IMG/VR virus record: IMGVR_UViG_3300022745_000063
Span: 1 to 42,499 of that record
Length of the DNA stretch: 42,499 bases
Source of the DNA: a virus
Strand: one strand, 5' to 3'
Shown here: positions 998-42,172 of the stretch, one piece after another
Position numbering within the stretch: position 1 is the stretch's first letter
Layout: each line of letters opens with the position of its first letter
Notes under the pieces: model-generated
Told to the model about the DNA's origin: nothing
Seen by the model: only the letters and a program-made list of their open reading frames with translations
Database searches by the model: none
Position numbers and translations under genes: made by a program

Positions 998-1494
998 TGG
1001 AAATGCGAACCTCCTGTACCCAAGCTGAGTTTGCCGCCCTGGTGGGCGTGAGCCAGCCTGCTGTGAGCGACATGCTGGCCCGTGGCGTGATCAAGCCAGG
1101 GCAAACCACCGTCGAATGGCTGCAATCGTACTGCGCCCACCTGCGCGAACAAGCGGCCGGGCGGGGTGGTGACGGCGAACTCGCCGCCAAACGCGCCGAA
1201 GAAAGCGGCAAGCGAACGGAACTGCTAGAAATCAAGATTGCCCAGCTTCGGCGGGAAGTTGTGCCCGTGGCCGTGCTGGAGCAGATCCTCGCCCACTGTG
1301 GCCGCAACATCCGCAGCTCACTCGAAGCCCTGCCGGTGGACCTGCATCGCCTGTGCCCCGACCTTCCGCTGGAAGGCGTGAAGCTCATTGAAGACGGCAT
1401 CGCCAAAGCCTGCAACGCCACAGCCAGCATGACGCTGGCCAGCCTGGATGAGTTGAATTCTGACGGCGACGAAGAGGGTGGGCAAGCGCCATAG
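997..1494 (+). CDS. terS: Terminase small subunit, Nu1-like
   Basis: A 165-residue protein. Residues 7-30 form a winged-helix or HTH segment (QAEFAALVGVSQPAVSDML), as in the DNA-binding domain of lambda Nu1, which recognises cosB. A charged helical linker rich in Arg, Glu and Lys follows (about residues 60-90), then a C-terminal region expected to contact the large subunit. It lies directly upstream of the large terminase gene, 5 bp apart. The function follows from family and position: binding the packaging site and loading the large subunit onto concatemeric DNA. Confidence 0.88.
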   Translation: MEMRTSCTQAEFAALVGVSQPAVSDMLARGVIKPGQTTVEWLQSYCAHLREQAAGRGGDGELAAKRAEESGKRTELLEIKIAQLRREVVPVAVLEQILAHCGRNIRSSLEALPVDLHRLCPDLPLEGVKLIEDGIAKACNATASMTLASLDELNSDGDEEGGQAP

Positions 1495-1499
1495 CCACC

Positions 1500-3635
1500 A
1501 TGACCGCCACCACCTCCACTGCCCCCCAAGCCTTCTGGCAGCACCTCCCTGTGCCGCTGCGGGAGTCTTTGCGTGCGTCGGTGGCCAAGGGGTTGGAGGC
1601 TTTGCGTGTGCCTGAGCCCGTGAGCTTGTCGGTATGGGCGCATCGGCACTTTTACTTGTCGGCTGAGTCAAGCCAGCGCACGCAGCGGTGGGAGGCGTAC
1701 CCCTTTCAGATCGGGCTCATGGATGCCATGTCCGACGACGGCATCGAAGAGGTGGATTTCCAGAAAAGCGCCCGTCTGGGCTACACCAAGTGCCTGCTCG
1801 CCATGATGGGCTACACCGCCCAGCACAAGCGCCGCAATCAGGCCGTGTGGCAGCCCACCGACGACGACAGCGACGACTTCACCAAGACCGAGGTCGAGCC
1901 CATGTTGCGAGACGTACGCATCATGCGCAGCGTCTTCCCGCAGGTGCTGGCCAAGAGCAAGGTCAACACCTTGCAGCAAAAAAAGTTTCTCGGCTCCGTG
2001 CTCAAACTGCGCGGCGGCAAGAGCGCGGGCAACTTTCGCCGCCTCACCATCGCCGTGGCCATTTTGGACGAGCTCGACGGCTTCGACCAACAGGTCGAAA
2101 AATCCGGCGACCCGTGGACGCTCGCCTGGAAGCGCCTCGAAGGGGCCACCTACAAAAAGCTCATCGCAGGCACCACCCCGCGCATCAAAGGCTTCAGCCA
2201 CATCGAAGCCCGCTGCAACGCTGCCGATGTGCGCATGGCCTACCAAGTCACCTGCCCGCACTGCGAGGCCGACCACCCGCTGGTGTGGGGTGGCAAAGAG
2301 TCGCTGCACGGCATGAAGTGGTCGCACGAAGACCCTGAAAACACCGTCCACCACATCTGCCCCCACTGCCACGGCAGCATCCGCCAGTCTGACTACCTGC
2401 GCATCTGGCGCACGGGCAAGTGGGTCAGCGACTGCGGCAACTTCCAGCTCGTGCACGGCTGGTCTGACAACGGCGAACCCTGGAGCCAGTGGCAAACCGC
2501 TGCGGGTGACAAGTGCATCCCCCCGCGCCATGTCGCCTTTCACGCCTGGACGGCCTACAGCCCGCAAGCCACCTGGGCCGACATCGTGCGCGAATTCCTC
2601 AACGCCAGCGCCAAAGCCAAGACCGGCGACAAAGGCCCCCTGCAAGGATTTGTCAACGAGACGCTGGGCGAGACCTGGGAGGAAGAGGTGGACAAGGCCG
2701 ACGCCCACCAGCTCGCCAAACGCGCCGAAGCCTACTCCCTGCGCAGCGTGCCCCTGGGTGGCCTGCAACTCGCCGCTGGGGTGGACGTGCAAGACGACCG
2801 CTTCGAGATCGCTACCTGGGCCTTTGGCCGTGGCGAAGAAATGTGGCTGGTCGATTACACCGTGCTCGACGCCAACCCCGCCGACGAGCGCGACTGGAAG
2901 CGCCTCTACGACCACCTGCGCCTGCCCCTCAAGCACGCCAACGGCCCACACATCGGCATCAGCGCCGCCGCCATCGACTCCGGCGGCCACTTCACGCACC
3001 AGTGCTACAGCTTCGTGCACCAGTACGGCAACGCCACCCAAAGCCTGCGTCTGTACGCCGTCAAAGGCAGCAGCAAAAGCGGTGATCCCGTCAAAGGCCG
3101 CGCCAGCTCGCAAGACATCAACCACCGGGGCCGCGTGCTCAAGCGTGGCGTCAAGCTCTGGATGGTCGGTACCGACACCGCCAAAGACCTCTTCTTTGGC
3201 CGCCTCAAAGTCACCCAGCCCGGCGCTGGCTACGTCCACTTCAGTAAGGACCTCGCCACCGCCTTCTACAACGGCCTCACCGCCGAGGTGCGCATGCTGG
3301 CCAAAACCGCCACGGGCGACCAGTACCGTTGGGTCAAACGCGCGGCCCGCAACGAGCCGCTGGACTGCACCGTGTACGCCATCTTCTGCGCCCACATGCT
3401 CGACATCCACCGCCACACCGAGCGCCGCTGGCAACAGCTTGAGCAAGCCGTGGCCCCAGACCTGTTTGACCTGCCCGTCGAGCCCACCGTGGCAGACGGC
3501 TACCAAACCCGCCCAGCCGACGGGCAACCCCCAACACCCAACCCACAGAGGCCAGCCAATGAAGCGGCCCGCATCAACCCGGCGTCGAGCACCCACAACC
3601 CGTTTGCCCCCGCAGACTGGTTGGCCCGACTATGA
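1500..3635 (+). CDS. terL: Terminase large subunit, lambda GpA family
   Basis: A 711-residue packaging ATPase and nuclease. The motor domain carries a degenerate Walker A region typical of this family near residues 88-99 (FQKSARLGYTKCLL) and a Walker B (AILDELDG) near residue 190. A zinc ribbon follows with two CPHC pairs near residues 251 and 287. The C-terminal nuclease begins near AAGVDVQDDRFE at about residue 425. Length and domain order match GpA-type enzymes, which cut at cos and translocate DNA through the portal. The last residues (Pro-rich, about 660-711) are low complexity. The stop overlaps the next start (ATGA). Confidence 0.95.
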   Translation: MTATTSTAPQAFWQHLPVPLRESLRASVAKGLEALRVPEPVSLSVWAHRHFYLSAESSQRTQRWEAYPFQIGLMDAMSDDGIEEVDFQKSARLGYTKCLLAMMGYTAQHKRRNQAVWQPTDDDSDDFTKTEVEPMLRDVRIMRSVFPQVLAKSKVNTLQQKKFLGSVLKLRGGKSAGNFRRLTIAVAILDELDGFDQQVEKSGDPWTLAWKRLEGATYKKLIAGTTPRIKGFSHIEARCNAADVRMAYQVTCPHCEADHPLVWGGKESLHGMKWSHEDPENTVHHICPHCHGSIRQSDYLRIWRTGKWVSDCGNFQLVHGWSDNGEPWSQWQTAAGDKCIPPRHVAFHAWTAYSPQATWADIVREFLNASAKAKTGDKGPLQGFVNETLGETWEEEVDKADAHQLAKRAEAYSLRSVPLGGLQLAAGVDVQDDRFEIATWAFGRGEEMWLVDYTVLDANPADERDWKRLYDHLRLPLKHANGPHIGISAAAIDSGGHFTHQCYSFVHQYGNATQSLRLYAVKGSSKSGDPVKGRASSQDINHRGRVLKRGVKLWMVGTDTAKDLFFGRLKVTQPGAGYVHFSKDLATAFYNGLTAEVRMLAKTATGDQYRWVKRAARNEPLDCTVYAIFCAHMLDIHRHTERRWQQLEQAVAPDLFDLPVEPTVADGYQTRPADGQPPTPNPQRPANEAARINPASSTHNPFAPADWLARL

Positions 3636-23359: not shown

Positions 23360-24298
23360 TCAATGAGTCCTTTGGTACGTCAGACGCTTGCCTTGCACGC
23401 CCTTGAGTAGCGCCTCAGCACGTTGGAAATCATCGTATCCAAGTGCTGTGCGGTGGTTATAGCGGTAGTCATACTCTGCAAGATAGCGATGCAGATGGTT
23501 TTGTCCGCAGTGCTGATAAACACCCTTCATGCCACGCTTGAAAACAGAGAAGAAACCTTCAATCGTGTTGGTATGGATCGAACGATCAACCATTGAAACA
23601 TACTCCCCTGCACCGTGGCGTGTGTAGGCGTGATCTGCGAAGTGCTGACTGACGCTGTTGTAATGGGCCGCTTCGTCAGTGAGGATTCGCGCCTCACGGC
23701 TGATATTGGCTTTCAGAATCGGAATCAGCGTCGTGGCTTTCAGGTCGTCAACAACGATAGACCGGGCCTTGCCAGTCTCACGGTCAACTAGCGACAACAC
23801 CTTATTCTTGTGGTGGTATCCACGGCCACGCTTTTCGCCTTTGGGCTTGATCGTTTTGTCGTGACCAATGAAAGTTTCGTCTACTTCGACGGAGCCACCA
23901 CCAGAGCCAAAAACATCAAACCCATCCTCACGCATGGCTTCACGAATGCGATGAGACATGAACCAAGCCGACTTCAATGTGACCCCGAGAGTGCGGGATA
24001 GTTGATTGGAGCTGATGCCCTTTTTTGATGAGGAAATCAGAAAGATCGCTTGCAGCCACAGACGCATCGGGATATGGCTGGACTCGAAAATCGTCCCCAC
24101 TTTGACGCTAAATGGTTTGCGGCATCCGTAGCACTTCCATGCGCCAACACGGGTTGACTTGCCTTGAAGTTTCCCGGCTTTGCCGATCTCGCCACAGTGA
24201 GGGCAGACAACTCCGTTGGGCCACAGACGAGTCTCGACAAACTCGTAGGCGGCTTCTTCGTTGTGGAAAAACGGCTGTGAAAGGATTGATTCGCTCAT
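23360..24298 (-). CDS. IS1595-family transposase (ISXO2-like)
   Basis: A 312-residue protein. The N-terminal zinc ribbon has Cys32, Cys35, Cys56 and Cys59 (CPHC and CYGC). The ISXO2-like DDE domain shows Asp140 (VEVDETFIGHD), Asp208 (ILTDEAAHYN) and the third-acid region NTIEGFFSVFKRG (Asn244/Glu247). Length and domains are complete, so the enzyme may be active. Start at the ATG near the right end of the element; its upstream region includes the inner end-repeat at 24312-24331. Confidence 0.95.
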   Translation of the reverse strand: MSESILSQPFFHNEEAAYEFVETRLWPNGVVCPHCGEIGKAGKLQGKSTRVGAWKCYGCRKPFSVKVGTIFESSHIPMRLWLQAIFLISSSKKGISSNQLSRTLGVTLKSAWFMSHRIREAMREDGFDVFGSGGGSVEVDETFIGHDKTIKPKGEKRGRGYHHKNKVLSLVDRETGKARSIVVDDLKATTLIPILKANISREARILTDEAAHYNSVSQHFADHAYTRHGAGEYVSMVDRSIHTNTIEGFFSVFKRGMKGVYQHCGQNHLHRYLAEYDYRYNHRTALGYDDFQRAEALLKGVQGKRLTYQRTH

Positions 24299-24609: not shown

Positions 24610-25593
24610 TCATGCCGCCTTCTTCCCAATGAACCCGAGCGCCCGCTCTTTGACTGCCAGCACGCGGTGGGCGTAGCGCATGGCGCTGGCGTGGCTTTTG
24701 TGGTTGAGCACGGCTCGCACGTCGTCAAGGGTGCCGCCGCCTTCGATGATGGCGGTGGCTGTGCCGTGGCGCAGTTTGTGTAGGGTGAGGTGTTGCAGGC
24801 CGAGTGCCTTTTTGGCTTTTGCAAACCAGTAGTTGGCCTCGGTGTAGCTGGGCGGCTGCACCTTGAACGCGGTGCGGGCTTTGGGGTGGATGGGCTGCCA
24901 GTCTGGCGTGGCGTTTTTGGTGTCGGGGATGTGGTAGGCCGTGCCTTCGGGGTTGACGATGGCTTGGGCGGCTTCGGTGTAGCGCTTGCCCGAGTAGTAG
25001 AGCCTGCGCAGCATGGCGCGGACACGGCGGTTTTGTGTGGCCAGCGCGATGCGCAGCATGTCGGCGCGGGTGGCAAACACGTCGCTGGCGTTGCTGACTT
25101 TGGGCACGCTCATGCGCTGTGTGGGCTTGTGCTCGCCGCCAAAGCGGTGCTCCTTCCAGGCGTAGTTGACGGCGGCACGCAGGTAGGCCAAGCGGTTGCG
25201 GATGGTGGCCGGGGCCAGTGGTGTGCCGTCTTCGCGCACGTTGCGGGCTTTGACGGCCACGCACACGTCGGCCAGTGCGCTGAGGGGCCGCCCGGTGTAG
25301 TAGGGCAGGATCTGCGCGAGTTCGAGGGCCACGTCGCGCCCGTGCTTGAGCTGGGGCAGGCGATGGGTGATGTAGAGGGCCACCGCGTCGTCGATCAGCT
25401 CGTGACGAGTTTCAAGGTCGATGGTCGCGCGGGCGTAGAGGTCTGCGGTGGCTTTGCGGTCGTAGGCATCGGCCTGGGCTTGATTCCAAGTTTTTGGAAG
25501 GCGCTTTGCAGTGCGGATTCGGCCTGCGCCCGCAATGGTGCGGTCGAAGGTAAAGACGAATTGACCGCGCTCTTTGTCTCGGTGTATCGACAT
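24610..25593 (-). CDS. int: Tyrosine recombinase integrase
   Basis: A 327-residue protein. Residues about 60-150 form the SAM-like core-binding domain. The catalytic domain has Arg204 (SGKRYTEA), Lys226 (DTKNATP), His272 and Arg275 (LHKLRHG), His298 (LNHKS) and nucleophile Tyr307 (MRYAH). All active-site residues are present. It is the last gene of the leftward operon and abuts attP. The 5' end overlaps the excisionase-like gene by 199 bases. Confidence 0.95.
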   Translation of the reverse strand: MSIHRDKERGQFVFTFDRTIAGAGRIRTAKRLPKTWNQAQADAYDRKATADLYARATIDLETRHELIDDAVALYITHRLPQLKHGRDVALELAQILPYYTGRPLSALADVCVAVKARNVREDGTPLAPATIRNRLAYLRAAVNYAWKEHRFGGEHKPTQRMSVPKVSNASDVFATRADMLRIALATQNRRVRAMLRRLYYSGKRYTEAAQAIVNPEGTAYHIPDTKNATPDWQPIHPKARTAFKVQPPSYTEANYWFAKAKKALGLQHLTLHKLRHGTATAIIEGGGTLDDVRAVLNHKSHASAMRYAHRVLAVKERALGFIGKKAA

Positions 25594-26137: not shown

Positions 26138-26535
26138 GCCTCACCCCCAGCGCTGGCCCATTCGTACACCTGGCGGGCTTGCAGCACGTCCACCACCTCG
26201 AGGATGCGGATGGTGCGGGCGTTTTGGCCCTCTTGGTTTGCGAGGCGCTTGGCTTCGGCCTTGGCTTGCGAGAGGTGTGTGTGCACCTTGCTGGGTGCGC
26301 GACTGCCGTCGATGCTGATCATGAATTGGCCGTACACCTCGCCGCCCAGCTTGCTGAGATGCAGGCGCTTGATGCGGGCCTCGGTGATGCGCCCTTGCAG
26401 GGCGCGCATGAGGTGGCGCTCTTCGTCGTGCTCGAAGTGGTCGGCCTCGATGATGCCTTCGATGACGCGCTGGCACTCGCCCAGCAGGGCGGCGAGCACG
26501 TCGGATTCGGCGGTGATGTGGGTGTGGAGGGTCAT
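26134..26535 (-). CDS. Conserved phage protein of unknown function
   Basis: A 133-residue, mostly helical, charged protein (ESDVLAALLGECQRVIEGII, DEERHLMRALQGRITEARIKRLHLSK). The central GGEVYGQFMISIDGS looks like a beta hairpin. It overlaps the reverse transcriptase stop by four bases and the next gene by four. The direct neighbourhood to the retroelement might mean a link, but nothing in the sequence shows it. Confidence 0.7.
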   Translation of the reverse strand: MTLHTHITAESDVLAALLGECQRVIEGIIEADHFEHDEERHLMRALQGRITEARIKRLHLSKLGGEVYGQFMISIDGSRAPSKVHTHLSQAKAEAKRLANQEGQNARTIRILEVVDVLQARQVYEWASAGGEA

Positions 26536-27890
26536 GCTGGCTTTCTGTAAATCTTGCCGATGTCACCCGCCACAGCGTGGCCACGGCGGCGCAGGATATT
26601 GGCGATGCGGGTTTGGTCGGTGTGCCCGTGGCTGGCTTGGCCGGCGAGCCCTAGGTAGCTGTTGCCAGCGGCGAAGGTGTCGGCCTCGGCCATGTGTTGC
26701 AGGCGCCGCAGGGCGGTGGTGATGGTTTTGCGCCGGATGATGCGGCGCCATGGTTTGATGATGTGGCCCACGAAGTCGATGCCACGCTCGATGGGCTGGA
26801 GGATGGTCTTGCGTGGGTTGAGGCACAGGTTCAGTGTGGCAAGCCGGGCTTCGATGTGCTCGCGCGCTTGGTTGAGCCACTGCGGGCTGTCGTGCAGCAG
26901 GACGAAATCGTCCACGTAGCGCACGTAGTGCGGGGCGCGGAGTTGGTGTTTGATGAATTGGTCCAGATCGTCGAGCAGCACGTTGGCGAAGAATTGGCTG
27001 CTGAGGTTGCCGATGGGCAGGCCGTGGTGGTCTGGCGCGTTGAACAGGCTCTTGTGCGCGGGCACGAGGGCCAGCTCGTGCCGTGTGCCGCGCACCTCGA
27101 CATCAAGGCGGGGGTCGTGCATGAGGATGGTTTCGGTTAAAGCCATCCACCACGGCTCGGTCACCTGGCGCTGTAGCTGGCCGAGCAGGATGGTTTTGTC
27201 GATGCTGACGAAGAAGTTGGCCAGGTCACACTTGAGGTAATGCGCGGGGCGGCTCCAGTTCTGGGTATGGCTGCGCACCTGGTGCTCCAGCCGCTGGGCG
27301 GCGTAGAGGGTGCCCCGGCCGGGGATGCAGGCGCAACTGTCAGCCACGAAGCGGGCATGAAACCTCGGTGCGATTTGGTTGTAGAGCAGGTGGTGGACGA
27401 TGCGGTCGCGGAATTGCGCCGCCCACACTTCGCGCGGCTTGGGGCGGGTGATGACAAAGCAGATGGAGCGTCCGGGCTGGTAGGTGCCGGATTGGAGTTC
27501 TTCATGGAGCTGGTACAGGTTGTGCTCGGCCCGCGCCTCGAAGGCTTCGGCACTGGCGCTGGTGCGCTTGGTACGTCGGCAGTCGAGGTAGGCCTGCACA
27601 AGCTGCTGGAACAGGTGTGGATCTGCGGACGGCAACAGCCGAGCCTTCGTAGCTCTTGTGGTTGTTGTTCTGGTTGCCGTTGTTGAAGTTGCAATTCCAG
27701 GCGTAGGAGGCGCACCTGTCGCGCTGATGATGCCGCCCGCCCGAAGGCCGGAGCCGATCAGGTGGGGAGCTGCACCGGACGCAGCCCGTACGGTGGCGGT
27801 GGTATCCGTGGTGTGCATGTCGGTGGCCTTTTGGGCCAGCGGCGCGACCAGATTCACTGTGCGCACGGGCATGATGGCCTTGACCTTCAT
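26532..27890 (-). CDS. Diversity-generating retroelement reverse transcriptase
   Basis: A 452-residue frame from ATG 27890, whose ATG overlaps the avd stop (ATGA). The recognisable RT domain starts near residue 90 (PHLFQQLVQAYLDCRRTK). It shows RPKPREVWAAQFRDRIVHH, the first catalytic Asp in KCDLANFF (about 222), the DGR-type IGNLSSQ motif (about 293-299) and the YVDD box (325-328). It should copy the template RNA with errors at adenines and pass the cDNA to the variable repeats. The first 85-90 residues are read through the spacer and template repeat and are Thr/Ala-rich. A non-ATG start such as TTG at 27635 would give a more usual RT length. Confidence 0.95.
   Translation of the reverse strand: MKVKAIMPVRTVNLVAPLAQKATDMHTTDTTATVRAASGAAPHLIGSGLRAGGIISATGAPPTPGIATSTTATRTTTTRATKARLLPSADPHLFQQLVQAYLDCRRTKRTSASAEAFEARAEHNLYQLHEELQSGTYQPGRSICFVITRPKPREVWAAQFRDRIVHHLLYNQIAPRFHARFVADSCACIPGRGTLYAAQRLEHQVRSHTQNWSRPAHYLKCDLANFFVSIDKTILLGQLQRQVTEPWWMALTETILMHDPRLDVEVRGTRHELALVPAHKSLFNAPDHHGLPIGNLSSQFFANVLLDDLDQFIKHQLRAPHYVRYVDDFVLLHDSPQWLNQAREHIEARLATLNLCLNPRKTILQPIERGIDFVGHIIKPWRRIIRRKTITTALRRLQHMAEADTFAAGNSYLGLAGQASHGHTDQTRIANILRRRGHAVAGDIGKIYRKPA
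27622..27712 (-). repeat. DGR template repeat (TR), 91 bp
   Basis: On the minus strand it reads as GCC TCC TAC GCC TGG AAT and continues with eight AAC codons, 27 adenines in all, ending GCC GTC CGC AGA. It aligns without gaps to 28296-28386 (91 bp) and, over 88 bp, to 28802-28889. It lies between avd and the RT domain, as in Bordetella phage BPP-1. All differences from the two variable repeats fall on its adenines. Confidence 0.97.
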
Positions 27891-28264
27891 GCTGCAGGCG
27901 CCCTGTTCGTTCGTTTGAGCCAGCCACCGGCCTGTTTGCCGACGCTCCCCAGCAGCTCGATGGAGTCTGCCCACAGCTTGGGCGAGATGTACCGGGCATC
28001 GTGGCTGACGCGCAGCAGCACTGTGATGGCGCGCTCGCGAGTGAGCAACTGCTCAATGTACCACGCCCGGGCCTCGTGCTGGCTGGCATTGGCCAAGGCC
28101 ATCAGATCGAGCATTTCGACGCAATGCTGGGTGATTTTCTCGCCCAGCGCCCGCTTGACGGTGCGCGGCATCTGGACTTGGGCCCTGATGGCCAGATCCA
28201 GCAGGCGCGCGCCGGTGCGATGAATGGGAAGTTCGGTGTGAAGTGCCACGGTGGCTGTGCTCAA
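27887..28264 (-). CDS. avd: DGR accessory variability determinant (Avd)
   Basis: A 125-residue, all-helical basic protein (GARLLDLAIRAQVQMPRTVKR, QHCVEMLDLMALANASQHEARAWYIEQLL, ERAITVLLRVSHDARYISPKLW, ELLGSVGKQAGGWLK). This is the four-helix pattern of Avd, the pentameric protein that binds the RT and template RNA. The frame starts with TTG at 28264; a GTG at 28249 is an alternative. No clear SD is present. It follows the second target gene and overlaps the RT frame start by ATGA. Confidence 0.9.
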   Translation of the reverse strand: MSTATVALHTELPIHRTGARLLDLAIRAQVQMPRTVKRALGEKITQHCVEMLDLMALANASQHEARAWYIEQLLTRERAITVLLRVSHDARYISPKLWADSIELLGSVGKQAGGWLKRTNRAPAA

Positions 28265-28267
28265 TTA

Positions 28268-28284
28268 AAGGATTGAAGGATCAA
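28268..28284 (-). repeat. 17-base sequence shared after both variable repeats
   Basis: AAGGATTGAAGGATCAA (plus strand) occurs here and at 28768-28784, overlapping the stop codons of both target genes. It is absent beside the template repeat. It may be a remnant of target-gene duplication or a site needed for retrohoming. Confidence 0.7.
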
Positions 28285-28748
28285 AGTGCTGAGACTCTGC
28301 GGACGGCAACAGCCGAGCCTTCGTAGCTCTTGTGGGTGCTGCTCTGGTAGCCGTGGCGGAAGTAGCAACCCCAGGCGTAGGAGGCGTCTTCCTTGTGTGT
28401 CTCAGATGACCAGTGCCACTCTGGCTTGAGGTGAGGTTTGCAGTTCGCGAAAAGCAGGGCCTGCTCTTGCCTGGACGGGAGTGAGCCGCCGACGCTTGCC
28501 GCCCAATCGGTTGCGTCTTGCCAGTTGAGTGCGCTGGCGGGCTGGGCGGCCATGAGCACCAGGTGGTGGGCGGTTTGTCCTTTCTCGTCCAGGATGACGC
28601 CGGCGTAGTGCTCGTCGGGTTGCAGGTTGAGCGGTGACTGTGCGTCATCGGCCTGAAACTGCGGGTTGATGGCTTTGTGCAGAGCTTCCATCACGGCGAG
28701 GGTGCGGGGTGTGAACTCAATGTCGATGGGGATGGTGATGCCGGACAT
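28281..28748 (-). CDS. DGR target protein 2, C-type-lectin-like variable protein
   Basis: A 155-residue protein from the ATG at 28748. Residues 1-60 are specific to this copy (ITIPIDIEFTPRTLAVMEALHK). The C-terminal half matches target 1: GSLPSRQEQALLFANCKPHLKPEWHWSSE, then the variable region at residues 121-151 ending KSYEGSAVAVR. Gly127, Tyr129, Arg131, His132, Tyr134, Ser136, Ser137 and Thr138 are the codons changed from the template. The DUF1566-like C-type lectin fold is inferred from the pattern. It is expected to be a binding protein with a variable surface; its ligand is unknown. Confidence 0.92.
   Translation of the reverse strand: MSGITIPIDIEFTPRTLAVMEALHKAINPQFQADDAQSPLNLQPDEHYAGVILDEKGQTAHHLVLMAAQPASALNWQDATDWAASVGGSLPSRQEQALLFANCKPHLKPEWHWSSETHKEDASYAWGCYFRHGYQSSTHKSYEGSAVAVRRVSAL
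28296..28386 (-). repeat. DGR variable repeat 2 (VR2), 91 bp
   Basis: Differs from TR (27622-27712) at ten positions, all TR adenines: AAT to GGT, AAC to TAC, AAC to CGC, AAC to CAC, AAC to TAC, AAC to AGC twice, and AAC to ACC. None of the 64 non-A positions differs. It lies at the 3' end of target gene 2, with the GC-rich GTTGCCGTCCGC as the likely initiation region. Confidence 0.97.
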
Positions 28749-28780
28749 GTTGGGCTTTCGTGAGTTGAAGGATTGAAGGA

Positions 28781-29161
28781 TCAAGCGCTGAGCGGAATCA
28801 AGCGGACGGCAACAGCCGAGCCTTCGTAGCTCTTGCGGGTGTAGTTCTGGTTGCCGTCGTAGAAGCGGCAACCCCAGGCGCAGGAGGCGTCGTACTCATC
28901 AGCAGTCCAGTGCCACTCGGGCTCCAGCTTGACCTTGATGTTGGCGAAGAGCAGGGCCGCAACGGGGCGCGTGGGGAGTTCGCCGCCTTGCTCTTTGGTC
29001 CAGGCCTTTGCGGCTGCCCAGTCGAGGTCTGTCCCATGTCCGGGAAGCAGCACAACAGCGCAATGTGTGCCGTCTGGCTTGGTGGTCAACCCGGCGAAGG
29101 TACCGCCGTCGAGCGATGCGCCCAGTGCGGGCAGGTTGGTGAGGTTGAGAGGCTGTGACAT
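28781..29161 (-). CDS. DGR target protein 1, C-type-lectin-like variable protein
   Basis: A 126-residue protein with a strong SD (AAAGGAG, five bases before ATG). It is related to target 2 over its C-terminal 75 residues: GGELPTRPVAALLFANIKVKLEPEWHW, then the variable region at about 91-120 with Cys94, Gly97, Arg99, Tyr101, Asp102, Tyr107, Thr108 and Arg109 differing from the template-encoded residues. There is no signal peptide or coiled coil. It is the first DGR gene in the leftward operon. It is a likely variable ligand-binding protein of unknown location. Confidence 0.92.
   Translation of the reverse strand: MSQPLNLTNLPALGASLDGGTFAGLTTKPDGTHCAVVLLPGHGTDLDWAAAKAWTKEQGGELPTRPVAALLFANIKVKLEPEWHWTADEYDASCAWGCRFYDGNQNYTRKSYEGSAVAVRLIPLSA
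28802..28889 (-). repeat. DGR variable repeat 1 (VR1), 88 bp
   Basis: Differs from TR at ten positions, all TR adenines: TAC to TGC, AAT to GGT, AAC to CGC, AAC to TAC, AAC to GAC, AAC to TAC, AAC to ACC and CAC to CGC. None of 63 non-A positions differs. Adenines in the 3' part (AAG AGC TAC GAA) are unchanged in both VRs. Confidence 0.97.
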
Positions 29162-29176: not shown

Positions 29177-29644
29177 TCACGGTTGTGGAATGGTTTGGCC
29201 GCGCTGCATGCGCAGCATCACGGCCTGCATGGCGGTGTGCATTTGCTGCGGGGTGCTGAGGGCGATGAGTTGCTCGTAGAGGTCGAGCAGGGGCGGGATG
29301 TGCTCGCGGCTGAGGTGGTCTGTGCCCCAGTGGCCGAGGCGCTGGGCGCGGTCGAGCATGTGCATGAGGGCGTCTTGTGCGTGTTGCACGGGGACGACCA
29401 GCAGGGGGTCGATTTCTTCGGCTCGCAGCAGGCACACATTCGCGCAGCAGGCGAGGTTGTGGAAGTCTTCTTCGGTGCCTTGGCCGGTGCACAGGCTCTG
29501 CCAGCTCACGCGCAGGGGCAGGGTGAGGCTGGTTTGCTCGGGCTGGGTGAAGGGCTGCACGCGGGCCATGACGCGGAAGAACGCGCCGGGGTCGGCGCGC
29601 AACCGATGCTTTGCATGTGCATCTTTTCTGTGTTTCGTTTTCAT
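29177..29644 (-). CDS. Conserved phage protein of unknown function
   Basis: A 155-residue protein from the ATG at 29644, coupled to the rha stop (ATGA). It is mostly helical (GTEEDFHNLACCANVCLLRAEEIDPLL, AQDALMHMLDRAQRLG, IPPLLDLYEQLIALSTPQQMHTAM). Two adjacent Cys and a basic N-terminus (KTKHRKDAHAKHRLR) are visible. No family is recognised. It lies between rha and the first DGR target, 15 bases ahead of the latter. Confidence 0.7.
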   Translation of the reverse strand: MKTKHRKDAHAKHRLRADPGAFFRVMARVQPFTQPEQTSLTLPLRVSWQSLCTGQGTEEDFHNLACCANVCLLRAEEIDPLLVVPVQHAQDALMHMLDRAQRLGHWGTDHLSREHIPPLLDLYEQLIALSTPQQMHTAMQAVMLRMQRGQTIPQP

Positions 29645-30390
29645 GCAACCCCCTTCGCCCCACCCACCGCCGCCCGTGCGGCTTGTTCGGCTTGTGCGGC
29701 GAGTTTGGCGACGATGCCCATGTGTGACACGCAGGACAGCAGGGCGTGGTGGTGTTCGCTGGCGAGTGCGTTGCCCAGGGTGGTGTCGCGCACGGCTTTG
29801 AGGGCTTTGTCGGTGTTGATGTGGCCGTGCCCGTTGATGGCCATGTAGGCCACGCGCCGCTGCATGTGCTCGTGCAGCAGGGGGTGCAGCTCGCGCATGA
29901 TTTCCCAGGCGCGGTCGTTGATGGTGCGCAGCAGCTCGGGCGGCAGGGGCTGGGGTTCGGACTGGCCCGAGAGCAGCAGGCCGCGCACGTCGATGGTGGC
30001 AGGCTCTGGCGTGGGCAGGGCCACGGGCGCTGCCTTGACGGCTTTGCGCTGGGTGCGCTCGCGCAGGGTTTGCTCCATGCGGTTGAAGTGGGCGATGTAG
30101 CGCTCTTTCCACTGCGCGGCCTTGGCTCCGGTGAAACCCATGCAGAGGAAAGCGAAGCCGTCGCGGGTGATGCGGTATTCGGTGCGCTGCTCGCCTTTGG
30201 CGTCGGTGTATTCAACGGGCTTGAAATTCAGCGCGTTGAATTCTGGTGAGCAGTCCAGATTGCGGATGCGTTCAAGCACGTTCTTGTGCTCTCTGCCGAA
30301 AGTCTCGGCAATGTCGCGGCTGGTGGTGGTGGGGGAACCGTCAATGACGGTGATGCGTGGCGCGGTGCGCCGTGAGGGGGTGTTAGCCAT
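29641..30390 (-). CDS. rha: Rha-family phage regulatory protein (copy 1)
   Basis: A 249-residue protein from the ATG at 30390, with strong SD AAAGGAG. The N-terminal Rha domain is clear (ITVIDGSPTTTSRDIAETFGREHKNVLERIRNL, YRITRDGFAFLCMGFTGAKAAQWKERYIAHFNRME). The C-terminal part (TIDVRGLLLSGQSEPQPLPP onward) is nearly identical to copy 2. Rha proteins act as phage regulators or antirepressors. The frame stays open upstream to ATG 30681, giving a 346-residue form, but the leader appears conserved as RNA rather than protein. The SD can pair with the C4-like RNA loop. Confidence 0.88.
   Translation of the reverse strand: MANTPSRRTAPRITVIDGSPTTTSRDIAETFGREHKNVLERIRNLDCSPEFNALNFKPVEYTDAKGEQRTEYRITRDGFAFLCMGFTGAKAAQWKERYIAHFNRMEQTLRERTQRKAVKAAPVALPTPEPATIDVRGLLLSGQSEPQPLPPELLRTINDRAWEIMRELHPLLHEHMQRRVAYMAINGHGHINTDKALKAVRDTTLGNALASEHHHALLSCVSHMGIVAKLAAQAEQAARAAVGGAKGVA
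29854..29994 (-). repeat. 141-bp inverted repeat shared by both rha genes
   Basis: Matches 41816-41956 in the opposite orientation, with two differences in 141 bases, while flanking rha sequence has diverged strongly. This suggests recent gene conversion. Being inverted and about 11.8 kb apart, the copies could also allow inversion of the immunity and replication region by homologous recombination. Confidence 0.85.
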
Positions 30391-30445
30391 GATGGCTCCT
30401 TTGGAACAGGTCTTGAACCTGCCACCCTCCCTGCCAAGAGAGGGC

Positions 30446-30517
30446 GGCAGACCGTGCAGGTTGGCAGACCGGCCAAAGGAACCGGCACACCCTTGCGGGT
30501 GTCCCGCACGGCCCGCC
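30446..30517 (-). ncRNA. C4-like antisense RNA, copy 1
   Basis: A 72-base element with a 15-bp closing stem (30503-30517 with 30446-30460) and two inner hairpins: ACACCC-GCAA-GGGTGT, and CCGG-TTCCTTTGG-CCGG. The second loop contains TCCTTTGG, exactly complementary to CCAAAGGA at the rha SD (30397-30404). This is the design of the P1 C4 RNA, which blocks antirepressor translation in trans. The second copy (41300-41371) has the same structure with compensating changes. Confidence 0.82.
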
Positions 30518-30560
30518 AAAAAGGGAGCCATGCCCCGCGCTGCATCGGGAGCAATAGAAA

Positions 30561-30588
30561 AGCCGCAAACCTCAAGAGGCGTGCGGCT
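30561..30588 (-). terminator. Hairpin with short T-run in the rha leader (copy 1)
   Basis: AGCCGCA-cg-CCTC-tt-GAGG-tt-TGCGGCT followed by TTTC on the minus strand. The equivalent in copy 2 keeps the stem and has a longer T-run. It lies between the leader promoter and the C4-like element. It may be an attenuator; with only three extra T it is weak as a terminator. Confidence 0.5.
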
Positions 30589-30642
30589 CGCAGCGCCTTT
30601 GGTGCCGGGCTGCCAAGCCCGCATCCCCGAAGGGACGGGCGA

Positions 30643-30672
30643 AGTGTAGCCGATGCGCTCGGGCATGGTCAA
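30643..30672 (-). promoter_or_regulatory. Promoter of the C4-rha leader, copy 1
   Basis: A -35 TTGACC (30667-30672) and -10 TACACT (30643-30648) with an 18-base spacer. The -10 region and following GCCCGTCCCTTCGGGGAT are conserved at copy 2, where the rest of the leader has diverged. It lies at the start of an in-frame extension of rha, directly after the preceding gene. Confidence 0.65.
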
Positions 30673-35874: not shown

Positions 35875-36306
35875 TCAAGCTGTGACGGCGGCATTCTCTT
35901 TCTCGGGCTGTGACTTGTGTGGCAGATGCAGCCGCACAAACGCTGCGGCATGGTTCTCCACTTCTTTTTTCTCTTGTGGTTCCAGCAGGTCCCAATGTTC
36001 CGGCTTCACGTCCTTGAATGGCCAAATCATGAATGGTCTGTCTGGCTCGCGGGCGATGAGGGTGGTTACTTGGGCCGTGGCCCTTTCTTTGGCAACAAGT
36101 TGCTTCCACTCTGGATATGCGGCATCCAGTTGGTCGGCTGTGTCTTCGCCGATTCGTTTTCTACCGGCCTTGCCCGGTTCGTACAGCATGCGCGAAACAT
36201 AGTTCGCCTCCTTGTCGATCTTTGCTGCAATTTGAGCGATGCCCCCCCGCCCCAGTTGCTTGACTAGGGCGAGCAGGCCTTTGCGTCGCTGCTCATATTT
36301 GTCCAT
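35875..36306 (-). CDS. CI-like phage repressor without peptidase domain
   Basis: A 143-residue protein from ATG 36306. The N-terminal HTH (RRKGLLALVKQLGRGGIAQIAAKIDKEANYVSRMLYEPGKAGRKRIGEDTADQLDAAY) is the typical Cro/CI type of betaproteobacterial phages. The rest (FMIWPFKDVKPEHWDLLEPQEKKEVENHAAAFVRL) is a short helical part. There is no S24 Ser-Lys self-cleavage domain. It should bind the TTACCC-NN-GGGTAA operators. Its start lies about where its promoter would begin transcription, so the mRNA may be leaderless. Confidence 0.85.
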   Translation of the reverse strand: MDKYEQRRKGLLALVKQLGRGGIAQIAAKIDKEANYVSRMLYEPGKAGRKRIGEDTADQLDAAYPEWKQLVAKERATAQVTTLIAREPDRPFMIWPFKDVKPEHWDLLEPQEKKEVENHAAAFVRLHLPHKSQPEKENAAVTA

Positions 36307-36311
36307 GCCCA

Positions 36312-36382
36312 ATTGAATCGAATCGTTACCCGCAAGTAAATGACCTTTGGGTATTGCTTTTGTGCTTACCCTAGGGTAAGCT
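36312..36382. promoter_or_regulatory. OR-like operators with divergent promoters
   Basis: Three operators lie between the repressor and Cro-like genes: TTACCCTAGGGTAA (36366-36379), TGACCTTTGGGTAT (36341-36354) and TTACCCGCAAGTAA (36326-36339). Rightward promoter: -35 TTGCTT (36354-36359), 17-base spacer holding the first operator, -10 TAAGCT (36377-36382). Leftward repressor promoter: -35 TTTACT and -10 TTCAAT (plus coordinates 36335-36340 and 36312-36317), also 17 apart. The 25-base spacing of the first two operators equals that at OL. Confidence 0.82.
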
Positions 36383-36388
36383 ATGCGC

Positions 36389-36646
36389 ATGTCCTCAATC
36401 ACGAAATACCTCAACGGGTTGGATGTCGCCAGTCAACTCGACTTTGCGCGGCGCTGCGGCACGTCGGTGGGCTACCTGCGCAAGGCGGCTTCCATTGGCC
36501 AAAAAATCGGCGAGGGGCTGTGCATCGCACTTGAGCGCGAAAGCCAAAAAGCCATCCGCTGCGAAGAGCTGCGCCCCGATGTGGATTGGGCTTATCTGCG
36601 CAATGGGGGCGGTGAGGCTGAGCTGGCCGAGAGGAAGGTGGCTTGA
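36389..36646 (+). CDS. Cro/YdaS-like DNA-binding protein
   Basis: An 85-residue protein if started at the ATG at 36389; an ATG at 36383 adds Met-Arg. It has the HTH DVASQLDFARRCGTSVGYLRKAASIGQKIGEGLCIALERES and ends with ELRPDVDWAYLR, a combination typical of YdaS/Cro-like proteins. The predicted transcription start coincides with the ATG, so it may be translated from a leaderless mRNA. Divergent from the repressor, it should be the lytic-side switch protein. Confidence 0.85.
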   Translation: MSSITKYLNGLDVASQLDFARRCGTSVGYLRKAASIGQKIGEGLCIALERESQKAIRCEELRPDVDWAYLRNGGGEAELAERKVA

Positions 36647-37524: not shown

Positions 37525-37790
37525 TGCGCCCCGCTGGGCCTGTGCGCATGGCGCTGCTGGGGGCAGTGGCTGCTGGTGTGAGTGGCGATTTTTCTGCCCT
37601 TGCCCGCAGCACGGGGCACCCTGAATGCCAGGTGCGCCAAACACTCAAGAATTTGCGCCGCGAGGGCAGGGTAGAGCGGGTGGCTGATGCACCAGCCGCA
37701 GGCTCACCACCGCGCGGTGTGTATGGGCAAGCCACAGAGCGGCGCAGTGTGTTTGATGCGCTGTCGCATGTGCGCGAGGTGTGGCGATAG
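37524..37790 (+). CDS. Small winged-helix protein
   Basis: An 88-residue protein. Residues about 8-60 (VRMALLGAVAAGVSGDFSALARSTGHPECQVRQTLKNLRREGRVERV) form a winged HTH with a wing ending GVYGQA. It is coupled to the upstream regulator by one shared base. It probably binds DNA near the replication genes. Confidence 0.7.
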   Translation: MRPAGPVRMALLGAVAAGVSGDFSALARSTGHPECQVRQTLKNLRREGRVERVADAPAAGSPPRGVYGQATERRSVFDALSHVREVWR

Positions 37791-37848
37791 GCCTCAGAGC
37801 CCAAGCACCTGCCAGAAAAAACCAACCCTAAACATACAAAAAAATCTC

Positions 37849-40473
37849 ATGGCGTCAAACCACAAGGACCAACTGCCCCCGATCAATTTTGAAGCTCTGG
37901 CCAGCGCCTTGCTGGACCGGGCGCACACGCTGGTGCCGATGTGGCTGCCGGGTGGCTCGCAGCGGGGGCATGAGTACACCTGCGGTTCGCTGCAAGGTGG
38001 CTCGGGCACGAGTTGCTCGGTGAACCTGATCAATGGCAAGTGGGCCGACTTTGCCACCGATGAGCGCGGCAATGACCTGGTGAGCCTGTACGCCAAGGCG
38101 CACGATTTGACCATGGGCAAGGCTGCCGTGCAGGTGGCGCGTGAGTGCGGGCTGGAAGATGTGGCCAATGTGCAGCGGGCCGCGCCCGGTGCTGCACCGG
38201 TAGCCGCACCCCGGCCAGTGCCTGCCCCGGCGCCAGTGGCCCGCCCGCGTGTGGATGAAGGCTGGGCCACGGTGCGGCCTGTGCCAGCGCACGCGCCAGA
38301 GCCCACGTTCTACCACCAGCACCGCAAGCCGCAAGACCTTGACCACCGGGCAGAGTACCGAGTGGACGGGGCGCTGCATGGCTTTGTGATGCGCTTTCGC
38401 ACCAGCGAGGGCGGCAAGGACACGTTGCCCTACACCTGGTGCACCAGCGCCCGCGATGGCGCGAGCTGCTGGAAGTGGAAGACGTGGGACGAACCGCGCC
38501 CGCTGTACTACCCAGGCCACACCTCACCGGGCACACGCACGGTGGTGCTCGTGGAGGGCGAGAAAAAGGCCGATGCGCTGCAAGCGCTGCTCGATGCCGG
38601 TGCGCCAGGGGTGTACTGTGTGGCGAGCTGGGCAGGTGGCTGCAAGGCGTGGCGCAAGGCCGATTGGAACTGGCTTGCGGCCTGTACGGTGCTGTTGTGG
38701 CCGGATTGCGATGCCAAACGGGAGCGGCTGACGAAGGCCGAGGAGGCCGCCTGCAAGGACGAAGCCGAGCGCGACATGCTGCAGGCGCTCAAGCCACTGC
38801 TGCCCAATGAAAAGCAACCCGGCATTTCGGCCATGCTGGGCATTGGGGCGCTGCTGCAAGCCGAGCAGGGCTGTGCGGTGCAGATGCTGCCGGTGGCCGC
38901 GCTCACGGGCATGGTGCCCGACGGCTGGGATTGCGCCGACGCCATCCACACCGACGGCTGGGATTTTGCCCGCGTGGCTGCGTTTTTCGGGCAGGCTGGG
39001 CCTCTGCCATTGGCCGATGTGCAACAGCCTGCTGTGGCTGGTTCTGGTGAGCTTGATGCGGCTGCAAACACGTCGCGTGACGGCCTCGCTGGCGCGGCGG
39101 GGGGTGGTGGCGGTGGTCGGGCGATGCCCGACTGGCTGGCTCCGTACTTTGACGCGGACAAGGGCCGCTGGATGGTTTCTCGCAAGCTGGTGATCGCCGC
39201 GCTGGAGCATGATCCGGCGCTGTGCGAGGTGCTGGGCATGAACCAGCTCTCGAACAGCATTGAAGCGCGGCAGGCGTGGCCCTGGGTGCATGGCAAGGCG
39301 GGGCCGATCACTGGCACGGCTGACCTGATGCTGGGCGACTACCTCACGCGCACTTATGGCCTGCCCAGCATTGCCCGGGCGGCGCTGATGGAGGGGATTG
39401 AGACGGTGGCGCACGCGAGGCCGTTTCACCCTATCCGAGACTGGCTCACCACGCTCAAGCATGACGGCAAGGTGCGCATTGACAAGTGGCTGATCTACGT
39501 GCTCGGGCTTGACCCCGAGACCCTGACCCCGCAGATGGAGGAATACCTCAAGCTGGTGGGGCGCTACTGGCTGCTGGGCATGGTGAACCGGGTGATGGAG
39601 CCCGGCTGCAAGTTTGACTATTGCCCGGTGCTCGAAGGCCCCGGCGGTTTGGGCAAGAGCACGCTGGCCGAAACGCTGGCGGGCCTGGCGTATTTCAGCG
39701 ACACGCACTTTGACATCGGCAAAGGCAAAGACGGCCAGGAGCAGGTGCAAGGGCTGTGGGTGTACGAGATTGCCGAGTTGGCCAACTTTGGCAAGGCCGA
39801 GATTGGGCTGATCAAGGCGTTCATAACGGCCAAGGTGGACCGTTACCGGCCCGCCTATGGGCGCACAGTGGAGGCGTATGCACGCCAGTGCGTGCTGGTG
39901 GGCACCACCAACGAGAGCACCTACCTGCGCGACCGCACGGGCAACCGGCGCTTTTGGCCAATCCCGGTGACCAACCGCATCAAGAACCCCTGGGTGGCCA
40001 GGTGGCGCGAGCAGTTGTTTGCCGAGGCTTACCAGCTTTATTTGCAGGGTGAGCGCTTCACGCCCACGCCCGAGGAAGAGGCGCGGCTGTTTGTGCCCAT
40101 GCAAGAAAGCCGCATGGTGGAGACAGCCGTCATCAGCGAGCTGATGAACGTGCTCACTCGCCAGCCCCTGCAACAAGGAATTGGTGCGCTGGTGCATCGT
40201 GAGGCTGAGTTCGTGACGATCAGCCAGCTCACTCTGGCGCTTGGCGTTGACGCAGCCAAGAGCAGCCCTGCGCTTGAGGCGCAGGTGCGCGGCTTCCTCG
40301 ACCACGAGGGCTGGGAGCGCGTGAAGAAACAGGTCAACGGCGTGCGAGCGTGGGGATATGCCCGCCCGCGCAATTGGCCCAAGGAAGAACCGGCTAGCCC
40401 GGACGCAGCCATCCGTGCGCAGGGCGCAACGGGGGCATCAACAGAAGAGGGCGCAGACGATGAGCCGTTTTGA
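37849..40473 (+). CDS. Replication protein: primase/TOPRIM fused to VapE-like helicase
   Basis: An 874-residue protein from ATG 37849. The N-terminal part (GGSQRGHEYTCGSLQGGSGTSCSVNLINGKWADFATDERG) resembles zinc-finger-like primase starts. A TOPRIM-type segment follows (VVLVEGEKKADALQALL, about residue 232). The C-terminal half is a virulence-associated E (PF05272) ATPase with Walker A EGPGGLGKST (about 596-605) and NESTYLRDRTGNRRFWPI near its end. It should prime and unwind the phage origin. It is the only replication gene seen. Confidence 0.9.
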   Translation: MASNHKDQLPPINFEALASALLDRAHTLVPMWLPGGSQRGHEYTCGSLQGGSGTSCSVNLINGKWADFATDERGNDLVSLYAKAHDLTMGKAAVQVARECGLEDVANVQRAAPGAAPVAAPRPVPAPAPVARPRVDEGWATVRPVPAHAPEPTFYHQHRKPQDLDHRAEYRVDGALHGFVMRFRTSEGGKDTLPYTWCTSARDGASCWKWKTWDEPRPLYYPGHTSPGTRTVVLVEGEKKADALQALLDAGAPGVYCVASWAGGCKAWRKADWNWLAACTVLLWPDCDAKRERLTKAEEAACKDEAERDMLQALKPLLPNEKQPGISAMLGIGALLQAEQGCAVQMLPVAALTGMVPDGWDCADAIHTDGWDFARVAAFFGQAGPLPLADVQQPAVAGSGELDAAANTSRDGLAGAAGGGGGGRAMPDWLAPYFDADKGRWMVSRKLVIAALEHDPALCEVLGMNQLSNSIEARQAWPWVHGKAGPITGTADLMLGDYLTRTYGLPSIARAALMEGIETVAHARPFHPIRDWLTTLKHDGKVRIDKWLIYVLGLDPETLTPQMEEYLKLVGRYWLLGMVNRVMEPGCKFDYCPVLEGPGGLGKSTLAETLAGLAYFSDTHFDIGKGKDGQEQVQGLWVYEIAELANFGKAEIGLIKAFITAKVDRYRPAYGRTVEAYARQCVLVGTTNESTYLRDRTGNRRFWPIPVTNRIKNPWVARWREQLFAEAYQLYLQGERFTPTPEEEARLFVPMQESRMVETAVISELMNVLTRQPLQQGIGALVHREAEFVTISQLTLALGVDAAKSSPALEAQVRGFLDHEGWERVKKQVNGVRAWGYARPRNWPKEEPASPDAAIRAQGATGASTEEGADDEPF

Positions 40474-41158: not shown

Positions 41159-41188
41159 TTTGCCATGCCGGGTCGCATCGGCTACACT
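41159..41188 (+). promoter_or_regulatory. Promoter of the C4-rha leader, copy 2
   Basis: -35 TTTGCC (41159-41164) and -10 TACACT (41183-41188), 18-base spacer, aligned with copy 1. CGCATCGGCTACACTTCGCC and the following CGTCCCTTCGGGGAT are identical in both copies. Confidence 0.65.
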
Positions 41189-41239
41189 TCGCCCGTCCCT
41201 TCGGGGATCGGGATTGGCGTCCCGGTAGCAAGGCGCAGC

Positions 41240-41273
41240 AAGCCGCTCGCCTCCAAAGGTCTGCGGCTTTTTT
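41240..41273 (+). terminator. Intrinsic terminator or attenuator in the rha leader (copy 2)
   Basis: AAGCCGC ... GCGGCTT with an inner CCT/AGG pair and six T. It is placed between the leader promoter and the C4-like RNA, as in copy 1. It may stop most transcripts or end readthrough from upstream. Confidence 0.6.
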
Positions 41274-41299
41274 CATGCGCAACGCATGGCTCCACTTTT

Positions 41300-41371
41300 G
41301 GCGGGCCGTGCGGGGGCACCCGTAAGGGTGCGCCGGTCCTTGCCCGGTACGCCAACCCCGTACGGTCTGCC
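41300..41371 (+). ncRNA. C4-like antisense RNA, copy 2
   Basis: Same size (72 bases) and layout as copy 1: closing stem 41300-41315 with 41356-41371, hairpin GCACCC-GTAA-GGGTGC and hairpin CCGG-TCCTTGC-CCGG. The whole second loop, TCCTTGC (41337-41343), is the exact complement of GCAAGGA at the rha SD (41413-41419). Compared with copy 1, loop and SD have changed together, and the first stem pair is G-C instead of A-T. This strongly supports an antisense pairing function. Confidence 0.83.
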
Positions 41372-41425
41372 TCCTGTGATTGGCGTCGCTTGGGGCAGGT
41401 TCATAACCTGTTGCAAGGAGCCATC

Positions 41426-42172
41426 ATGGCTAACACTCTCCCAACGGGCATTGCCGCCCATATCACCGTCATCGACGGACAACCCACCACCACGACCCAA
41501 GACATTGCCACCGTCTATGGCAAGCAGCATGCAAAGGTGCTGGCTATCGTTCGCCAGCGCATGAGTGAATGCCCGGATGAATGGCGTCTCGCCAATTTCG
41601 GCGAGACGGTCACAGAACGCGAAAACCCCAGCGGGGGAGCGCCGATACAGTCGCCCGTCATCCGCATGACCAAGAAGGGCTTCCACTTCGTCGTGGGCAA
41701 GTTCACCGGGGCCAAGGCTGTGGCGCACCAGATCGCCTTTGCCGACGAGTTCGAGCGCATGGAGCAAACCCTGCAAACGCGCACCCCGCGCAAAAGCGCC
41801 CGCCAGAGCATCACCATCGACGTGCGCGGCCTGCTGCTCTCGGGCCAATCCGAACCCCAGCCCCTGCCGCCCGAGCTGCTGCGCGCCATCAACGACCGCG
41901 CCTGGGAAATCATGCGCGAGCTGCACCCCCTGCTGCACGAGCACATGCAGCGGCGCATCGCTTTCACATCCATCAACGGGCACAACCACATCGATCTGGA
42001 AAAGGCGATCAAGGCCGTGCAAGGCACAACGCTGGGCAACGCGCTCACGCACATGCACCACACCTCGCTGAACGGTGTCATCAGAATGCTCGACATCGCG
42101 GGAATGATGGCGCAAGAGGCGCACGAGCGGGCCACGGCTGCGTTGAGTGGGGCAAAGGGGGCGGGGCGGTAG
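41426..42172 (+). CDS. rha: Rha-family phage regulatory protein (copy 2)
   Basis: A 248-residue protein from the ATG at 41426 (SD GCAAGGAG). Rha domain: ITVIDGQPTTTTQDIATVYGKQHAKVLAIVR, then VIRMTKKGFHFVVGKFTGAKAVAHQIAFADEFERME. The C-terminal part shares a 141-bp near-identical block with copy 1. A hairpin CAGGTT-cat-AACCTG stands directly before the SD in both copies. The frame is open upstream to ATG 41147, but its reading frame in the leader differs from copy 1. It is a likely antirepressor or regulator controlled by the C4-like RNA. Confidence 0.88.
   Translation: MANTLPTGIAAHITVIDGQPTTTTQDIATVYGKQHAKVLAIVRQRMSECPDEWRLANFGETVTERENPSGGAPIQSPVIRMTKKGFHFVVGKFTGAKAVAHQIAFADEFERMEQTLQTRTPRKSARQSITIDVRGLLLSGQSEPQPLPPELLRAINDRAWEIMRELHPLLHEHMQRRIAFTSINGHNHIDLEKAIKAVQGTTLGNALTHMHHTSLNGVIRMLDIAGMMAQEAHERATAALSGAKGAGR
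41816..41956 (+). repeat. 141-bp inverted repeat, copy 2
   Basis: 139 of 141 bases match the reverse complement of 29854-29994. It encodes IDVRGLLLSGQSEPQPLPPE and the following helix of the Rha C-terminal part. Confidence 0.85.

Follow-up and report, generated by a model that had tools for sequence, protein, structure and literature searches.

The window, which is the whole stretch of DNA analyzed here (42,499 nt, IMG/VR record IMGVR_UViG_3300022745_000063), is one coherent lambda-like temperate phage. It contains a terminase (997-3635), portal, protease, tape measure and fibre genes, an integrase (24613-25593, minus strand), a regulator (35875-36414, minus strand) and a VapE-type primase (37687-40473, plus strand). 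An IS1595-family transposase adjoins the integrase (23363-24298, minus strand). A diversity-generating retroelement is found at 26532-28880 on the minus strand, with a reverse transcriptase (phrog_1423) and an RT-15 RNA (27712-27903). The template repeat lies at 27621-27701. Two variable repeats are found at about 28295-28375 and 28800-28880, and 10/10 mismatches in either one fall on template adenines. As annotated, the reverse transcriptase reading frame overlaps the RT-15 RNA with its 5' part, so the true start of this gene is probably further in.

Two modules with a C4 antisense RNA and a rha-like gene are found in this phage. They belong to opposite operons, as had been proposed from the letters of the DNA: Copy 1 shares the leftward operon with the integrase, and copy 2 closes the rightward early operon. 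We use the names given in P1, a' for the junction segment of the C4 and b' for its loop.

The copy 2 module covers 41159-42172 on the plus strand. It begins with a putative promoter (41159-41188), with TTTGCC/TTGCCA as its -35 and TACACT as its -10 element (scan match 9/12, shuffled mean 0.1). It is followed by the a1 site TTGGCGT (41214-41220), an exact 7 nt complement of the junction segment, which falls inside a sub-threshold Rfam c4-a1b1 match (41182-41228), and by the b1 site GCAAGG (41228-41233), complementary to the loop. A terminator-like hairpin, AAGCCGC...GCGGCTTTTTT, is then found at 41240-41273, recognized by its sequence, its fold and its homologues; our promoter/terminator scan, whose loop length is limited, overlooks it. 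The C4 RNA occupies 41294-41377. Its loop segment (b') TCCTTGC (41337-41343) is placed between the stem arms GCCGG and CCGGT (41332-41348), and its junction segment (a') ACGCCAA (41349-41355) matches both a1 and the a2 site TTGGCGT (41380-41386). The b2 site, GCAAGGA (41413-41419), is the Shine-Dalgarno sequence itself, and the ATG (41426) comes 6 nt later. It opens rha-like gene 2 (41426-42172, 248 aa; Pfam PF09669, E 2.5e-13; Rha-like/anti-repressor profiles in PHROGs), which would be the gene controlled by the copy 2 C4.

The copy 1 module (29641-30672, minus strand) has the same order. The putative promoter is TTGACC-18-TACACT (30643-30672, scan match 9/12), and its -35 element is stronger than that of copy 2. 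The a1 site TTGGCAG (30610-30616), complementary to the junction segment CTGCCAA, and the b1 site CCAAAGG (30596-30602), complementary to the loop, precede a terminator-like hairpin, AGCCGCA...TGCGGCTTTTCT (30556-30588), supported in the same way as that of copy 2. They are followed by the C4 RNA (30440-30523, loop TTCCTTTGG), the a2 site TTGGCAG (30431-30437), again the complement of CTGCCAA, the b2 site, which is the Shine-Dalgarno sequence CCAAAGGA (30397-30404), and rha-like gene 1 (29641-30390, 249 aa; PF09669, E 2.5e-30; anti-repressor profiles in PHROGs). Each copy is a complete P1-type module: a promoter, a1/b1, a terminator-like hairpin, the C4, a2/b2 covering the Shine-Dalgarno, and a gene of the Rha/antirepressor family. 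A C4 search of the whole window did not find a third one.

The two C4 RNAs and their contacts

Both C4 RNAs exceed the curated cut-off of Rfam family RF01695 (covariance model, 61.5 bits for copy 2 and 60.5 for copy 1, cut-off 45), which bears out the sequence-only reading, where a second C4-like RNA had been placed at 41300-41419. The minimum-energy fold is the C4 family fold in both copies: three helices, an antisense hairpin loop and a junction segment. Its energy is -53.5 kcal/mol in copy 2 (z -5.2, 0/200 shuffles) and -49.8 kcal/mol in copy 1 (z -5.0, 0/200 shuffles). The upstream a1/b1 pair is present in both copies as exact sites, with scores below the cut-off of the Rfam c4-a1b1 model (35.5 and 34.2 vs 46.7 bits). 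The scores for IsrK (RF01394) are 36.9 and 27.5 bits, with a cut-off of 50; the match in copy 2 spans 41195-41273. Because of these scores, we describe both modules as IsrK-like in layout and do not file them as IsrK. Protein family is the evidence which suggests that the controlled genes are antirepressors (Rha, PF09669; anti-repressor in PHROGs).

Each C4 has four contacts: its loop with b1 and b2, and its junction segment with a1 and a2. The complementarity to a2 and b2 amounts to 7 + 7 nt in copy 2 and 7 + 8 nt in copy 1. The perfect complementarity of loop and Shine-Dalgarno which had been claimed for each copy is found in 7/7 positions in copy 2 and in 8/8 in copy 1 (TCCTTTGG/CCAAAGGA). 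Between the copies, the letters of all four contacts have changed, each time together with those of the partner. The sequence-only reading was therefore right about the covariation of loop and Shine-Dalgarno, but it had caught one contact of the four, missing the upstream b1 site and the a1 and a2 sites of the junction. It had also described a change from A-T to G-C in the stem, which we see at one stem pair, where copy 1 has A-U and copy 2 has G-C.

Two other proposals find no support. The copies had been called orthologous; they are paralogues, and neither is the nearest relative of the other. They had also been thought to be read at different times, which is unsupported: The promoters are nearly identical, with the same -10 element, and they have GCATCGGCTACACTTCGCCCG in common, so the sequence gives no sign of different firing times. 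A simple recent duplication within the phage was considered and rejected, as nearer relatives are found elsewhere (0.833 and 0.797) than the copies are to each other (0.783). The two Rha proteins are 55% identical. Their N-terminal domains differ, and their C-terminal halves are nearly identical over about 50 residues, which suggests recombination between the rha copies.

One of the copies might be decayed or silent, with the other alone functional. The promoter of copy 2 is weaker and its loop is shorter than in copy 1, and copies which match their own targets poorly occur in other records with several C4s (v047). Nevertheless, the four contacts, the fold and the gene are intact in both copies, and decayed members of the family lose such matches, which makes this explanation quite improbable.

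Pairing across the C4 family

We have collected C4 RNAs by a pattern scan of viral contigs and by searching one bacterial family (299 genomes), followed by a search with our own covariance model. The yield was 180 C4s. If those with the same loop and junction are counted once, 169 non-redundant C4s remain, which represent 149 types of loop and 38 of junction. The viral pattern fixes the backbone parts GCCGG, CCGGT and CCAA, so the survey is biased toward C4s which keep them. The search of the bacterial family is free of this bias, and it includes junctions with an altered CCAA and altered partners, such as CTGCTAA/TTAGCAG and CTGCGAA/TTCGCAG.

At all four contacts, the match is far better within a module than with foreign targets. 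Among the 169 C4s, the loop matches its own Shine-Dalgarno over 7.05 nt on average and foreign ones over 4.43 nt; the values are 6.88 and 5.11 nt for the loop with the upstream site, 6.78 and 4.60 nt for the junction with the downstream site, and 6.96 and 5.17 nt for the junction with the upstream site (0/200 shuffles in each case). As shuffles ignore kinship, we have also formed disjoint pairs from close relatives whose loops differ, and compared them. The own match exceeds the cross match in 69/75 pairs for loop and Shine-Dalgarno (2 against), 70/75 for the loop and the upstream site (2 against), and 44/47 for the junction and the downstream site (0 against). More homologues had been suggested as a check of the covariation between loop and Shine-Dalgarno, and they turn out strongly in its favour. 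Some C4s do break the rule, since 15% of the homologues have a loop match below 6 nt at their own Shine-Dalgarno.

The rest of the module is also conserved. An ordered a1-b1 pair is found upstream of the C4 in 138/162 cases, compared with 2.6% for permuted pairs, and a terminator-like element follows a1/b1 in 90/138 homologues. The consensus upstream of a1 is sigma-70-like, TTGaC...TAcnnT. The helices of the C4 covary in an alignment of 95 distinct rows, with 98.5% of cells paired and 10 pairs changed on both sides (0/500 shuffles), figures which are qualified by the fact that the alignment was fitted to its own model. Antirepressor-type families account for 37/60 matches among the genes behind the matched Shine-Dalgarno (Bro-N 19, Rha 8, P22_AR_N 5, AntA 3 and KilA-N 2), a tally in which the same protein can appear under several families. 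Short leader genes are also found among the targets: 30/110 complete ones have fewer than 90 aa.

A different role has been proposed for the C4-like small RNAs of Acinetobacter baumannii (PMC5320573), whose variable loops would aim mainly at host mRNAs. That case resembles ours in that many C4s with differing pairing segments are found in one genome. It differs in that the copies are genome-wide and host RNA targets are proposed, whereas the window phage has two copies, each of which fits the adjacent gene. The strong variation of the loops could be read in the same way here. In our collection, from viral contigs and one bacterial family, this variation follows the cis target: A loop match of at least 6 nt is found with the adjacent Shine-Dalgarno in 85% of C4s, and with the upstream copy in 91%. 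We consider it most improbable that host mRNAs are the main targets of these loops.

Proposed control and insulation of the two switches

Our main reading, with a probability of about 85%, is that copy 2 is a second complete module of the P1/P7 type which controls a Rha-family regulator, and that copy 1 does likewise with different letters. The promoter at 41159-41188 would make a leader. Part of the transcripts would stop at the hairpin (41240-41273), which would thus terminate a short IsrK-like RNA with the a1 and b1 sites, and the remaining ones would read through the C4 into rha. As in P1, RNase P presumably releases the C4 from the transcript; the predicted processed end of the C4 in copy 2 is the GG of GGCGGGCCG, near 41300. 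The loop would cover the Shine-Dalgarno and the segment in the three-way junction would grip a2 just upstream, blocking the translation of rha. By analogy with P1, the C4 would most likely block translation of the regulator during prophage quiescence. The short RNA offers the same two sites to the C4, so it is probably a decoy which would draw the C4 away, a role modelled on IsrK of Gifsy-1.

The C4 of P1 and P7 (RF01695) has the same fold, the same two pairing segments and the same order, a1-b1-(terminator-like hairpin)-C4-a2-b2/Shine-Dalgarno. The annotated P1 record lists a1, b1, c4, a2, b2, icd and ant in this order; its b2 lies at the Shine-Dalgarno, and a terminator-like hairpin separates b1 from c4. 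As in P1 (GTTAGTGC/GTTAGTGA), b1 sites end in C and b2 sites in A. Unlike P1 and P7, the window phage has two modules, whose junction and loop letters are different, and its C4s cover the Shine-Dalgarno of the regulator itself, instead of that of the leader gene icd, which is translationally coupled to ant. The IsrK/STnc1160/anrP locus of the Salmonella prophage Gifsy-1 also has a terminated short RNA, a read-through RNA with a C4-like piece and an antirepressor gene, and its short RNA has complementary sequences in common with the C4 piece. Coupling takes place there through orf45, whereas the regulator gene follows directly in the window phage. The short IsrK is trans-acting: It works on its own read-through mRNA and switches on the antirepressor; the authors prefer refolding of the mRNA to simple removal of the C4-like piece (PMC4825925). 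The CI RNA of phage P4, with seqA and seqC, is likewise an antisense RNA processed from a leader, and its target sites flank it, one upstream and one downstream (PMC4825925), but it acts by transcription termination, belongs to another RNA family and is without an antirepressor gene.

Since the letters differ at all four contacts, either C4 should favour the gene of its own module, and the two copies should mostly ignore each other. We have estimated this preference as the sum of the duplex energies of loop with Shine-Dalgarno and junction with a2, a crude measure which ignores loop geometry, intramolecular structure and competition by a1/b1. The sum for target 1 is -28.1 kcal/mol with its own C4 and -17.4 with the other one (a gap of about 11), and a narrower target window makes the gap larger for C4-2 on target 1. 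The energies are -21.5 and -18.5 kcal/mol for target 2 (a gap of about 3), so the predicted insulation is strong for C4-2 on rha-1 and weak for C4-1 on rha-2. The same measure gives -26.0 and -14.3 for the P7 target (gap 11.7), and -23.5 and -19.4 for that of P1 (gap 4.1). The C4s of P1 and P7, 4 nt apart, reportedly show no cross-reaction (Citron & Schuster 1990, as cited in PMC5320573). Separate C4 specificity has a precedent in these two phages. Insulation of our two copies is plausible in both directions on these modelled energies.

The small gap at target 2 allows a different picture, one connected circuit in which the specificities differ and C4-1 still represses rha-2, as a one-way link. 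C4-1 retains -18.5 kcal/mol on target 2, compared with -21.5 for C4-2, and about 5 bp at the Shine-Dalgarno and 5-6 at a2 are left in cross-pairing. Given their nearly identical promoters, both RNAs would arise together. On the other hand, the gap is near the smaller of those calculated for P1 and P7, the pair reported as non-cross-reacting (Citron & Schuster 1990, as cited in PMC5320573), and the loop of C4-1 needs a bulge to pair with Shine-Dalgarno 2. Such a link appears unlikely to us, though less so than decay of one copy.

Several C4 RNAs in one genome

Among 50 IMG/VR records with a C4, 6 have at least two and one of these has four, with the reservation that part of the records may be fragmentary or contain more than one phage. 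The record with four C4s (60.8 kb, with L161 and L162) has three of them within about 3.2 kb. Two or three of its C4s match their own downstream region poorly; they may have decayed, or they may act on each other's targets. The P1-like Escherichia coli isolate vB_EcoM-Ro157c2YLVW (MH160767) has two C4s, with loops TTTCATGTACG and TTTCACAATCG, each of which fits its own upstream and downstream sites. They are found at 391-476 and 39512-39597 of MH160767.1, a record without such annotation. One bacterial genome contains 12 C4 RNAs (L203-L214) on different contigs, nearly all with distinct loop and junction codes.

Within 21 genomes or records with several C4s, the target of a co-resident C4 fits the loop as well as the C4's own target does in 10% of ordered pairs, and fits both segments as well in 1.2%. 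These rates are about the same as between C4s from different genomes, so the separate specificities seem to result from the diversity of C4s. We detected no selection on co-resident C4s to avoid each other, as the summed match score is not below the shuffled one (P 0.88). An apparent signal in bacterial genomes (both segments fit a foreign target as well as their own in 0/222 ordered pairs, shuffled mean 5.5, P 0.002) was discarded, since it is due to a few decayed C4s which fit their own targets poorly (L237, L221).

A protein search of viral contigs with Rha 2 gave a single locus, a search for near DNA in phages gave no match, and the related isolates VarioGold and Aval, which have a similar primase, lack a C4. 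Our search of the open, non-subscription literature gave no paper which describes two C4s in one phage. The individual finding follows the known biology of P1 and P7, and the arrangement with two modules recurs in other phages.

In a wider sense, C4 might be regarded as an RNA specificity code, in which separate two-segment codes run several independent antirepressor switches in one phage or polylysogen. We put this forward tentatively, with the odds slightly against it. The 149 loop types with their own targets suggest that variable C4 loops mostly track the neighbouring gene and not host mRNAs. The window phage offers a natural pair of antisense switches, a few letters apart in one phage, as a test bed for the minimal separation of RNA regulators. 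Finally, the letters of the C4 may predict the immunity type between prophages.
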